Below are positions 40,428 to 44,714 of a stretch of DNA of 49,313 bases, piece after piece. The notes under the pieces were generated by a model that was not told the origin of the DNA, searched no databases, and saw only the letters and a program-made list of their open reading frames with translations. Positions within the stretch are counted from its first letter, which is position 1. Each line of letters starts with the position of its first letter. A program made the translations under genes and the position numbers. Source of the DNA: a virus; the IMG/VR virus record IMGVR_UViG_3300050821_007009, positions 1-49,313 of that record; one strand, written 5' to 3'.

Positions 40428-40976
40428 ATGCCCGACCTCCCTATTGACTATCCCCGTCTTACCCGCAGCGGCGCCGGCAAGGTCAGCTCTCCCGACGTTA
40501 AGCACTATCGTACTGGCTCGGCGGAACTGGATAGGCTCGCGGCAGAACATGATCGGATATGGAAGGTATTTCTAGAATCACCTAATAAAGTTATCTCACC
40601 ACCGCTGTCGTCAGCGCCAATGCCGGCCATATCCGCAGTCTTAATTATACCCGAACTTACGCCTGAACAAAAAGCGCCATTCGCGCGAGCGCATAAGCTA
40701 GCTGAAATACAAAAAGTTGTTGCGCAACATTTTGATATTAGCATTCTCGGTATTATTTCTAAATCCAGACTTAAGAAATTTGTGCATGCGCGCCAGGTTG
40801 CCATGTACATATGCAGGACAATGACTGGATTACCATATCCGAGAATCGGTGAATGGTTTGGGGGCAGAGATCATACAACCGTAATGCACGGCGTGCGTAA
40901 AATAGAAGCGCTGACGAAACAAGATTATGTGCTTGCTGACGAAATCGCGGCGCTGCGCGCGGGGTTGGAGCAATGA
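40428..40976 (+). CDS. DnaA domain IV-like protein (DnaA box-binding)
   Basis: 182 residues with no AAA+ domain. Residues about 92-165 reproduce the DNA-binding domain of DnaA: VVAQHFDISILGIISKSRLK, ARQVAMYICRTMTGLPYPRI, and the signature GRDHTTVMHGVRKIE at 146-160. In DnaA these residues read the DnaA box. A free-standing domain could recruit the host replisome to the phage origin or compete with host DnaA. ATGA-coupled to the methyltransferase gene. Confidence 0.8.
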   Translation: MPDLPIDYPRLTRSGAGKVSSPDVKHYRTGSAELDRLAAEHDRIWKVFLESPNKVISPPLSSAPMPAISAVLIIPELTPEQKAPFARAHKLAEIQKVVAQHFDISILGIISKSRLKKFVHARQVAMYICRTMTGLPYPRIGEWFGGRDHTTVMHGVRKIEALTKQDYVLADEIAALRAGLEQ

Positions 40977-43123
40977 GCGAGCCATGGACATTCTTCGATG
41001 GGCGTGTGGTGCTGCATGCTGGCGATTGCCGTGATGTGCTGCGCGGGATGGCTGATAATAGCGTTGATAGTGTTGTTACTGATCCGCCGTATCATCTGAC
41101 GAGTATTGTTAAGAGATTTGGCAGTGAGAATGCGAAGCCGGTTAAATCAAATCTCGAGCAGCCGGCCAACAAAAATCTTGAAAATATAAACGCAGGTGCA
41201 TTTCGACGCCTATCCAAAGGCTTTATGGGCAAGCAATGGGATGGCGGCGACATCGCATTCCAACCGGAACTATGGGCCGAGGTGTTGCGCGTGCTTAAGC
41301 CGGGCGGTTACATCATGGCATTCTCGGGGTGTCGGACGTATCACCGCATGGCATGCGCGATCGAGGATGCTGGGTTTATTACACATCCGATGTTTTGCTA
41401 TGCGTTTGGAAGCGGATTCCCGAAAGCGCATAATTTGAGCAAGCAGATTGATAAGATGGAAGGTGTTGAACGCAAATCATCATATATTCCAAATGGATTA
41501 AATAATACACACGGAGACGGTTGGGGCGGCGGCAATGGAGGTCTCGAACCGCCAGTCACCGATGCCGCCCGCGAATGGGATGGCTGGTTCTATGGAACGC
41601 AAAGCTGCAAACCATCTTTTGAGCCGATATTATGCGGTTCTAAGCCCTTTAACGATTGTACGTCAGAGAAATTTATGGTAGAGTTCTCCATCTTAATGGA
41701 GGCTCTGTTATGGTTGATCGCACCTGCGAAATTTGTGGAATACATTTCAACGAACAGCCATGCAGACCAGGGCGGTTCTGTTCGATGGATTGCCTTAATA
41801 AATCGCGCGCTGTCGTTAGAAGAACCGTCAGACCTGATGGCTACGTTTCCCTCACCGGAGGCGGCCTCAACGTTCTTGAGCATCGTCTTATTATGGAACG
41901 CCATCTTGGACGCCAGCTCGCTAAACACGAGCACGTCCATCACAAAAACGGAAACAGGTCTGATAATAGGGTTAAAAACCTTAGAGTCATGGATATCGGC
42001 GATCATGCCAGAGAGTTTCATCGAGGCAGTGATCCGTCAAAATGGCGTGTGGTTAGTTGCGCTGGATGTAGAACTCCAATCAAACGTCTCGCATGTGTTC
42101 TCGCCAAACATCCAACAGCATTCTGCAGCCGTGAGTGCTATCGCAAATTCCGCTCGCCAGATTCTTTTCACGCTTGCGAATATTGCGGCGGAGAGTTCTT
42201 TTCTCCAGCCGTCATTGGTAGGAGATATTGTTCGCGATCCTGCGCGAATTATGCCAGAGCGCAGAAGCGTTGACCTCGAGCCAGTGTACTTCGGGCAGAA
42301 GCCGTTCGAGCGCGGACTTAATGGCGCGCAGAATGTCATGAAATGGGGCGTAGGTGCGATTAATGTAGGGGCGTGTAAGGTTGCCGGTTCCAAGCCTAAT
42401 ACAACGCGAGGTGCAGGTGGTCAGAATGGACGTTACGGGCCTCTAGGCGCGATGGGTAGGATAATCGATGATGGTCTCGGCCGCTGGCCTGCCAACCTGA
42501 TTCACGACGGCAGCGAGGAAGTCCTGGCGTGCTTTCCGGAGACTGGTGATTGGGGGCAGCCGACAAATCATAGCAAATTTAGCGGATTTGAACATAGCGA
42601 TAGCGGATCAAAAAATAATATAGGATTCGGCGACTCCGGTTCTGCCGCGCGCTTCTTTGCGAGCTTTCCGCAAGATGGTGTGCGGTGTATATTTTACACC
42701 AGCAAGGCTGGCGTGAATGATAGGCTAGGGTCATCTCATCCAACTGTAAAGCCTCTCGATCTCATTCAATATTTAGTCCGATTGATCACACCAAAAAACG
42801 GTGTATGCCTCGATTTGTTTGCCGGTTCTGGAACAACCGGGGAGGCCGCATTCCGTGAAGGCTTTCGATCAATATTAATTGAACGCGAAGCTGAGTACAT
42901 TAAGGACATTGAGCGCCGCATGAGCCTTGTCATGGAAGGCCCAGATACGCGCGCATATGCGAGCATGAAAGCGCGGAATAAGCCAAGAGATGATGGGCCA
43001 TTATTTGGCTTTGAGGAAAATATTCGTGAGCCAAATTTAAAGCCATCAGCAAGCCCGCGACGTCCGTATGCTGACGATACAGCAATTTGGGGAAATCGCA
43101 AGCTAGACGAGGCTGCTGAATGA
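40973..43123 (+). CDS. DNA N4/N6 methyltransferase (DPPY) with 219-codon in-frame insertion
   Basis: 716 residues. Motif IV DPPY at 37-40 and motif I FAGSG at 616-620 give the beta-class order of amino-methyltransferases acting on cytosine-N4 or adenine-N6; VLKPGGYIMAFSG is the following conserved segment. The core is interrupted: EPILCGSKPF (codons from 41621) and EPVYFGQKPF (from 42278) are two versions of one conserved motif 657 bp apart, and the 219 intervening codons resemble no methyltransferase. An HNH endonuclease is encoded in another frame inside. Whether the long form is active is unclear; the DPPY, FAGSG and KPFERGLNGAQNV parts look intact. Confidence 0.8.
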   Translation: MSEPWTFFDGRVVLHAGDCRDVLRGMADNSVDSVVTDPPYHLTSIVKRFGSENAKPVKSNLEQPANKNLENINAGAFRRLSKGFMGKQWDGGDIAFQPELWAEVLRVLKPGGYIMAFSGCRTYHRMACAIEDAGFITHPMFCYAFGSGFPKAHNLSKQIDKMEGVERKSSYIPNGLNNTHGDGWGGGNGGLEPPVTDAAREWDGWFYGTQSCKPSFEPILCGSKPFNDCTSEKFMVEFSILMEALLWLIAPAKFVEYISTNSHADQGGSVRWIALINRALSLEEPSDLMATFPSPEAASTFLSIVLLWNAILDASSLNTSTSITKTETGLIIGLKTLESWISAIMPESFIEAVIRQNGVWLVALDVELQSNVSHVFSPNIQQHSAAVSAIANSARQILFTLANIAAESSFLQPSLVGDIVRDPARIMPERRSVDLEPVYFGQKPFERGLNGAQNVMKWGVGAINVGACKVAGSKPNTTRGAGGQNGRYGPLGAMGRIIDDGLGRWPANLIHDGSEEVLACFPETGDWGQPTNHSKFSGFEHSDSGSKNNIGFGDSGSAARFFASFPQDGVRCIFYTSKAGVNDRLGSSHPTVKPLDLIQYLVRLITPKNGVCLDLFAGSGTTGEAAFREGFRSILIEREAEYIKDIERRMSLVMEGPDTRAYASMKARNKPRDDGPLFGFEENIREPNLKPSASPRRPYADDTAIWGNRKLDEAAE
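41710..42273 (+). CDS. HNH homing endonuclease nested in the methyltransferase gene
   Basis: 187 residues in a frame different from the host gene, starting at the ATG at 41710 with GGAG 8-11 nt upstream. Order: N-terminal zinc finger (CEICGIHFN...FCSMDC), HNH core (RPDGYVSLTGGG, EHRLIMERHLGRQLAKHEHV, HHKNGNRSDNRVKNLRVM), then two more Cys4 fingers (CAGCRTPI...FCSREC, CEYCGGEFF...YCSRSC). The stop falls one base before host-like methyltransferase codons resume. Typical of mobile HNH genes that target the gene in which they reside. Confidence 0.82.
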   Translation: MVDRTCEICGIHFNEQPCRPGRFCSMDCLNKSRAVVRRTVRPDGYVSLTGGGLNVLEHRLIMERHLGRQLAKHEHVHHKNGNRSDNRVKNLRVMDIGDHAREFHRGSDPSKWRVVSCAGCRTPIKRLACVLAKHPTAFCSRECYRKFRSPDSFHACEYCGGEFFSPAVIGRRYCSRSCANYARAQKR

Positions 43124-43547: not shown

Positions 43548-43770
43548 AATCCTCAAAAAGCTGAATGGGTTTGATTTGCCTGATGCAACATTACAGGCAG
43601 ATCATATCATAATGCAAGCACTGGATGGAGTTAGGATTGACAGACATAATCGTGAGCGTGTGCGGGAATATTTGATATTGCATCTGATTTCTGCCGAGGA
43701 GCGCGGGCGACGCGAGGGAATAACCAAGGCGCTGGTCGAGGCTAAGCGGCAGAATCTGGGTTGTGATTGA
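43531..43770 (+). CDS. Helical hypothetical protein (79 aa)
   Basis: AGGAG lies 8-12 nt before the ATG. Sequence SEWDEILKKLNGFDLPDATL, then NRERVREYLILHLISAEERG, ending ALVEAKRQNLGCD; all-helical, acidic. Its stop overlaps the second methyltransferase ATG (TGATG). Not recognised. Confidence 0.58.
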   Translation: MSEWDEILKKLNGFDLPDATLQADHIIMQALDGVRIDRHNRERVREYLILHLISAEERGRREGITKALVEAKRQNLGCD

Positions 43771-44714
43771 TGAGCGTGCGAATTATCAAAGGCGATGTGC
43801 GCGAGAAGCTGGCTAAATTGCCGGCGGATTACTTCGACTGCATTGTGACGAGCCCTCCGTATTACCAACTTAGAAATTACAATTGCGAGGGCCAGATCGG
43901 CCTCGAACCCACGCTAGACGCATATCTTGAAACAATGGTTGCGGTATGCCGCGAGCTGCGGCGCGTGCTCAAGCCTAGTGGCGTGTGCTTTATTAACATC
44001 GGGGATTCTTATAATAGCAGTTCGCAGTTCAATAGTAGTGCAAAAAACATTTATGGAGAAAACAAAGATGTAAAATGGGCAGGCCATAGAGCGGCTGTGC
44101 CCGGCCTCAAGCCAAAAGACCTGATGCTCGTCCCCGAACGCCTTGGCATCGCTCTTCAAATGGACGGCTGGTGGGTTCGGTCGCATATCATTTGGGCGAA
44201 GAAAAATTGCATGCCTGAGAGCGTTATGGATCGCCCGACGAGTGCGCATGAGACGATTTGGATGCTAACCAAGAGCGCGCGATATTATTGGGATGCGGAG
44301 GCGGTGAAGGAACCCGCGGACAGTTTTGGGCGGCAACATACATCGGCCATTCAATCGCCTAAGACTCGCGCGCTTCAAGAAGACGGGGCACACGGAACAG
44401 GTGGGGACCTCAGTATCAACTATGAACGAGAAACTCGCAATCTCCGCAATGTCTGGCACATGGCCTCGCACCCATATCCAGACGCACATTTTGCAACATT
44501 CCCGCCGGAGCTAGCCGAGCGGTGCATTAAGGCCGGATCGCCGCGCGGCGGCCAGATCCTCGATCCATTTGCTGGCGCAGGCACAACTGGTCTTGTCGCT
44601 GATCGCCTTGGCCGCGATTGCACGCTTATCGATCTCAATACCGAATATGCCGAGATGGCATTGAATCGCATTAGGAATGATTGCCCGATGTTCGCGGAGG
44701 TTGCAGCAGAATGA
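43770..44714 (+). CDS. DNA methyltransferase, SPPY type (probable N4-cytosine)
   Basis: 314 residues. Motif IV is TSPPYYQLRNY near residue 30, the form usual for N4-cytosine enzymes; RRVLKPSGVCFINIGDSYNS is the next conserved strand, and near the C-terminus GGQILDPFAGAGTTGLVADR supplies the AdoMet-binding motif I. A mid-section ESVMDRPTSAHETIWMLTKS is typical of phage stand-alone enzymes. No restriction enzyme gene is adjacent, so it likely protects phage DNA or alters gene control. Confidence 0.85.
   Translation: MSVRIIKGDVREKLAKLPADYFDCIVTSPPYYQLRNYNCEGQIGLEPTLDAYLETMVAVCRELRRVLKPSGVCFINIGDSYNSSSQFNSSAKNIYGENKDVKWAGHRAAVPGLKPKDLMLVPERLGIALQMDGWWVRSHIIWAKKNCMPESVMDRPTSAHETIWMLTKSARYYWDAEAVKEPADSFGRQHTSAIQSPKTRALQEDGAHGTGGDLSINYERETRNLRNVWHMASHPYPDAHFATFPPELAERCIKAGSPRGGQILDPFAGAGTTGLVADRLGRDCTLIDLNTEYAEMALNRIRNDCPMFAEVAAE

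Follow-up and report, generated by a model that had tools for sequence, protein, structure and literature searches.

The closest described system to the locus studied here is the ShiLan domain, which was reported from about a dozen mycobacteriophages (Gosselin 2023, PMC9957025; Arsenault 2025, PMC11855218). Both papers described an HNH endonuclease in the third frame of the host gene, a disjunct distribution of the element and no intron or intein, and the work on the ShiLan HNH was computational only (PMC11855218). The idea of a hidden HNH gene that homes by dual-frame coding is already published in these papers (PMC11855218; PMC9957025).

In our study, the window (the whole stretch of DNA that was analysed, a virus record of 49,313 bases) was found to contain the same arrangement. 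The window and the ShiLan domain share the N6/N4 methyltransferase (MTase) family, the conserved KP-x-x-EP site and an insert that is absent from close homologues. In both, the host frame contains no stop, a zinc-finger HNH lies in the third frame, the start of the insert resembles the downstream 11 residues, and no intron or intein signature is present. The HNH proteins of the window and of ShiLan are homologous (47.6% over residues 12–164, E 5e-32). The window differs from the ShiLan domain in coming from a non-mycobacterial uncultivated virus, in the number of inserted residues (219 vs. 202), in the number of zinc fingers of the HNH (three vs. two), and in the presence of a Shine-Dalgarno sequence and of a start that precedes the first finger by a few residues, with a −10 box in many relatives. 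As the arrangement matches the published ShiLan domain, the window adds a distant new member to a kind already known, outside the mycobacteriophage group.

Two other systems are comparable in part. Pacc40 gp60 (PMC11855218) also contains an out-of-frame endonuclease inside a methylase ORF, whereas the methylase and the site are different from those of the window, and the methylases could not be aligned well in that study. The intron-encoded HNH homing endonucleases of the I-HmuI type share with the window the HNH nuclease class and, presumably, the homing role; unlike these, the window contains no intron and its host frame reads through.

The interrupted methyltransferase gene

The host gene, a beta-class N6/N4 DNA methyltransferase, was located at nucleotides 40973–43123 of the plus strand as a single open frame of 716 codons across the insert. 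The N-half and the C-half gave HMM matches in the same frame, and the Pfam match of the host frame to N6_N4_Mtase (E 1.9e-22) was found in two stretches. The 657-bp insert (41621–42277, plus strand) was missing from L002, L004, L005 and the empty mycobacteriophage alleles. The first motif copy, EPILCGSKPF (41621–41650, plus strand), forms the 5′ end of the insert and imitates the downstream target, whereas the second copy, EPVYFGQKPF (42278–42307, plus strand), is the native core strand of the MTase, beyond which the sequence matches the empty homologues. The spacing of the two copies was exactly 657 nucleotides; owing to the doubled flanking motif, the ends of the insert can be placed only to within a few codons. 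The initial annotation had described an MTase interrupted by 657 bp between these two motifs, with a host frame that stays open through 219 inserted codons; the coordinates, the spacing and the 716-residue frame were all reproduced. Upstream, at 40428–40976, the window encodes a phage protein with a DnaA C-terminal DNA-binding domain (E 2.9e-28), which overlaps the MTase start by 4 nucleotides. A second, uninterrupted N6/N4 MTase was found downstream of the invaded one, at 43767–44714.

The nested HNH endonuclease gene was located at 41710–42273 of the plus strand, in frame +2 relative to the host, with its ATG at 41710 and its stop at 42273 (564 bp, 187 residues). The protein in this alternative frame contained an HNH_3 core (Pfam E 2.3e-10) with intact core residues and three CxxC...CxxxC zinc-finger pairs, which bears out the earlier description of a complete HNH protein with three zinc fingers. 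A PDB sequence search with the HNH gave no informative match.

The EPxxxGxKPF motif was present in one copy in the homologues without the insert (L002, L004, L005, L006 and others) and in two copies in the window, and query residues ~226 and ~435 both aligned to the same ~33 nucleotides of these homologues. L002 showed 74% and 68% identity to the two halves of the window MTase. The mycobacteriophage empty allele reads KPxFEP[IV]VVARKPL; in the occupied alleles the insert opens with a lookalike (SYEPVCVAVKPYG) and stops right before the true strand (NTAFEPIVVARKPL), and the window insert follows the same pattern. The two motif copies of the window were alike in protein and identical at only 19 of 33 DNA positions; therefore a fresh duplication of the target at the DNA level was ruled out. 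The motif is doubled by a protein-level mimic with which the insert opens at its 5′ end. The duplicated target motif of the initial annotation was thus retained as two protein-level copies, against one in insert-free homologues, and given up as a fresh duplication. The alignment to insert-free MTases also showed the 219 residues to be an optional insert and not a conserved MTase domain.

The AlphaFold models had low mean confidence (54.6 and 55.5) and placed the insert, at low confidence, between two strands of the core. In them, the second motif copy corresponded to a modelled strand at residues 438–442 (pLDDT ~91), the counterpart of which was the strand 222–226 in the model of the insert-free L002. 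The first copy was disordered (pLDDT below 50) and formed no strand, and the host-frame insert was modelled as a low-confidence helix.

Distribution of the hidden HNH and openness of the host frame

When 50,697 phage records were searched by tblastn with the HNH, the best matches were genes labelled as DNA methylases in mycobacteriophages (Bipolar, ShiLan, Pollywog, MISSy, Mantra and others) and in the cyanophage Cr-LKS3. In the first 13 genes examined (the window, L003 and 11 annotated phages), the HNH was in host frame +2, the host frame was open and the motif was doubled without exception. The annotated phage records that were inspected lacked the nested gene and labelled the whole stretch as DNA methyltransferase. 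Profile scans of IMG/VR and GTDB genomes gave ~40 further loci, and wherever the HNH of a scanned locus lay at the window site between both MTase halves, it was in frame +2 and the MTase frame was open. Among MTase ORFs that contain both halves, 35 distinct ones showed this HNH at this site in frame +2, together with an open host frame. A distant DNA search of plasmids gave short MTase fragments only.

The openness of the host frame was compared with chance by shuffling synonymous codons within each HNH gene, in members that were picked by HNH similarity, independent of host-frame openness. The host frame was open over the HNH in 37/37 non-redundant members, vs. 7.7 expected from the shuffles, and the third frame was open in 0/37 (mean 9.3 stops). 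Two cases with a host frame closed over the HNH were left out of the 37: the second HNH of L082, downstream of which the MTase C-half is missing, and L121, where no MTase surrounds the HNH. Free-standing HNH relatives from the same scan were open in 2/30, vs. 1.4 expected. Jointly, the openness had a log10 P of ~ −21 among 21 representatives sharing less than 65% HNH identity; among the 6 most divergent representatives (less than 50% HNH identity) it was −4.6, related members not being independent. For the window alone, the open host frame was not significant (P = 0.23, synonymous-codon shuffling).

The third codon position of the HNH varied most in member pairs (share 0.43–0.56), which marks the HNH frame as the one under constraint. 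At identities below 90%, this position was ~10–25% less variable in members than in free HNH genes, and at equal DNA identity (55% to 90%) the host frame exceeded the same virtual frame of free HNH genes by ~4–8 points of similarity. We read this pattern as a selection that would keep the host frame stop-free and roughly acceptable, with no particular sequence required. Strong selection for a specific host-frame protein was rejected, since the codon-position rates favour the HNH frame and the extra conservation of the host frame is modest. One member (L054) contained a stop inside the HNH frame with an intact host frame, possibly a sequencing error in a metagenome contig. In occupied genes, both MTase halves kept third-position-biased divergence and retained the conserved motifs DPPY and FxGSG[TS].

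The inserts of six mycobacteriophages (Bipolar, ShiLan, Pollywog, MISSy, OwlsT2W and Filuzino) were 99.2–99.7% identical, whereas 150 bp of their MTase 5′ flank were just 66–79% identical, as homing predicts. More diverged inserts were found in Starcevich (~96%) and Mantra (~83%), and several uncultivated pairs showed 91–96% identity in the HNH vs. 60–76% in the MTase N-half. The disjunct distribution and horizontal movement were clear in mycobacteriophages and in some uncultivated viruses. As for the window copy, the insert was absent in its nearest MTase relatives, and no near-identical copy of it was found elsewhere, the closest HNH being ~51% identical.

Hidden HNH frames were also found at other positions. 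In the same MTase family, extra HNH frames in host frame +2 were present in L063 (2052–2447), L065 (3470–3865), L072 (3647–4015) and L009 (4002–4361); openness was unlikely by chance in L072 only (P 0.04; 0.16 in L063 and 0.79 in L009). A second hidden HNH in the MTase N-half, in frame +1, was found in L040 (1390–2019) and L082 (1393–1986), where the host frame was open with 10–15 stops expected and none of 4000 shuffles was open. HNH ORFs in frame +1 of other long ORFs were found in L090 (2504–2794), L092 (2507–2896) and L028 (2926–3177), with openness P of 0.10, 0.0003 and 0.0005, respectively. The hosts of L090 and L092 were MTase-like by PHROG (phrog_27243 and phrog_1008) and that of L028 was an unassigned ORF of 1865 residues.

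Three kinds of selfish element have been reported in one MTase gene (PMC9957025). In our study, L031 (711–3593, ShiLan gp65) and L032 (687–3731, Starcevich gp66) also contained an intein-like insert (CLT...ITGN before SGFPKS), and the MTases of L038 and L039 contained a LAGLIDADG-like in-frame insert. In L079 (1800–2560), the HNH follows an ORF resembling a C5-cytosine methyltransferase, with a TAATG overlap at the HNH start, and the N-half of the N6/N4 MTase is missing.

Putative expression signals of the nested gene

The HNH start of the window is preceded by a Shine-Dalgarno sequence, GGAGG (41698–41702, plus strand), 7 nucleotides ahead of the ATG (GGAGG-N7-ATG). A Shine-Dalgarno match of at least 4 nucleotides at the right distance from the HNH start was found in 25/37 members, and one of at least 5 nucleotides at the same place in 17/37, vs. 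1.5% of internal control starts. The start so preceded lay mostly 4–7 residues ahead of the first zinc-finger cysteine. For the ShiLan domain, no ribosome-binding site was reported and the start was taken as a GTG 26 codons further upstream (PMC11855218), whereas the conserved Shine-Dalgarno signal sits at the downstream start.

A TATAAT-like box was found exactly at −39 from the HNH start in 15/30 members and in 7/18 divergent representatives, vs. a mean of ~0.2 at other positions. A weak −35 peak was present 17 nucleotides ahead of the −10 box, and L047 contained TTGACA-N17-TATAAT upstream of the HNH. The isoleucine codon of the host that overlaps the −10 box was ATA in 16 members, with no other isoleucine codon at this place, whereas ATA made up 46/267 isoleucine codons in the same MTase halves, which points to selection at the DNA level. 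Many relatives probably also have a separate promoter for the HNH. No conserved promoter or −10 box was found at the window HNH, though it was clear in relatives.

Folding of a 60-nucleotide region of the window gave a hairpin, TCTCCAT-CTTA-ATGGAGG (41685–41702, plus strand), which pairs the Shine-Dalgarno site (−18 kcal/mol, z −2.55; computed probability of the site being unpaired 0.00). This hairpin may hold the expression of the HNH low or delayed. Ribosome-site hairpins are known for I-TevI of phage T4 and other homing genes (reviewed in PMC3014915). In expression control only, I-TevI is comparable to the window, as the ribosome site of the endonuclease is paired in a hairpin; unlike the window HNH, I-TevI is encoded within a group I intron in td and is expressed from a phage late promoter. 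Among the relatives, the accessibility of the Shine-Dalgarno site was below that of 5′-shuffled controls in 16/22 members, and in a transcript beginning at −27 the site was more open in 14/22. A family-wide hairpin released by an internal transcript was not retained, these counts being a weak tendency alone.

Probable homing without splicing and its alternatives

The insert is most likely an HNH homing element that resembles the ShiLan domain and is not spliced out, and the host gene of which would be preserved by a stop-free host frame. A homing element that keeps the host translatable by dual-frame coding had been proposed in the initial annotation, and it is the best-supported reading, given the +2 HNH and open frame in the 35 MTase ORFs. 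The HNH protein would recognise and cut insert-free MTase alleles near the KP-x-x-EP[IV] codons, and recombinational repair would copy the insert into the cut alleles, as suggested by the distribution and identity patterns, all of them in relatives. The insert length is a multiple of three and its host frame contains no stop, so that the host gene would survive the insertion. The resulting MTase would carry ~219 additional residues as a loop between two strands of its core; the insert opens with a mimic of the downstream strand, and the genuine strand comes after the insert. The HNH may be translated independently from the internal start, the Shine-Dalgarno sequence of which is present in the window.

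A small or derelict self-splicing intron, nearly all of which is filled by the HNH ORF, is very unlikely. Group I introns often house HNH genes, and the resemblance of the insert 5′ end to the downstream exon is a possible intron-like sign (PMC11855218). Against this, just 93 bp (657 − 564) lie outside the HNH ORF, which agrees with the earlier remark that under 100 bp leave too little room for a group I intron. No Rfam group I or group II intron was found in the window or in 20 relatives, whereas the T4 nrdD intron used as positive control was detected at 105 bits, and on this ground an intron was rejected; splicing also gives no reason for an open host frame in 37/37. No intein domain was found by Pfam in the 716-residue frame at E up to 1, as expected from the lack of visible intein motifs noted before. 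We consider it similarly improbable that the N-half, the HNH and the C-half are separate proteins made by reinitiation, with the open frame incidental. Such a split gene has precedent, as mobE splits nrdA in Aeromonas phage Aeh1, and a host-frame ATG lies just upstream of the window C-half (...IMPERRSVDLEP), near the HNH stop. However, in the mycobacteriophage members no such ATG lies ahead of the C-half. No host-frame stop ends the N-half in the 35 members with both halves in one ORF, and the host frame shows no interruption that would yield two products, being continuous in the window and open over the HNH gene in 37/37 members. A split design does not need the open host frame, which is nevertheless universal.

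Two further readings are more doubtful still. The host-frame insert could be a functional MTase domain, e.g., for target recognition, with the HNH frame secondary; it sits in the variable middle of the MTase, and the host-frame similarity is slightly higher than in the free-HNH control. This is extremely unlikely, as the codon-position divergence marks the HNH frame as constrained, neither Pfam nor PHROG gives a separate match for the host-frame insert, which is modelled as a low-confidence helix, and most homologues lack the insert. An invaded MTase that is dead and tolerated as dispensable, its frame open by chance, would be compatible with the window's own openness value and with the report that the mycobacteriophage MTase is not essential (PMC11855218). 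Nevertheless, it is equally hard to credit, since the family-wide openness is far beyond chance and both halves of occupied genes keep DPPY, FxGSG[TS] and a selection-like divergence.

Beyond the unspliced homing element of the window, we lean slightly towards a broader reading, in which such elements represent a widespread third way for homing genes to live inside coding genes, besides introns and inteins, without ever being removed. In this third way, selection would keep a second frame stop-free, so that the host protein carries a looped-out passenger, and the nuclease would be expressed from an embedded ribosome site of its own and, in many members, also from a promoter of its own. The same device may have evolved at several sites of MTases and in either alternative frame (e.g., L040, L082 and L092). 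Our study adds the breadth of the distribution, a quantitative argument for the open frame with its control, the Shine-Dalgarno site, the promoter box, the assignment of the native strand, and the further insertion sites and frames. With these, an element known from mycobacteriophages would be extended to a large class of homing elements in diverse phages that are dual-frame and not spliced out, and the tolerance of an unspliced insertion becomes testable in isolated phages.
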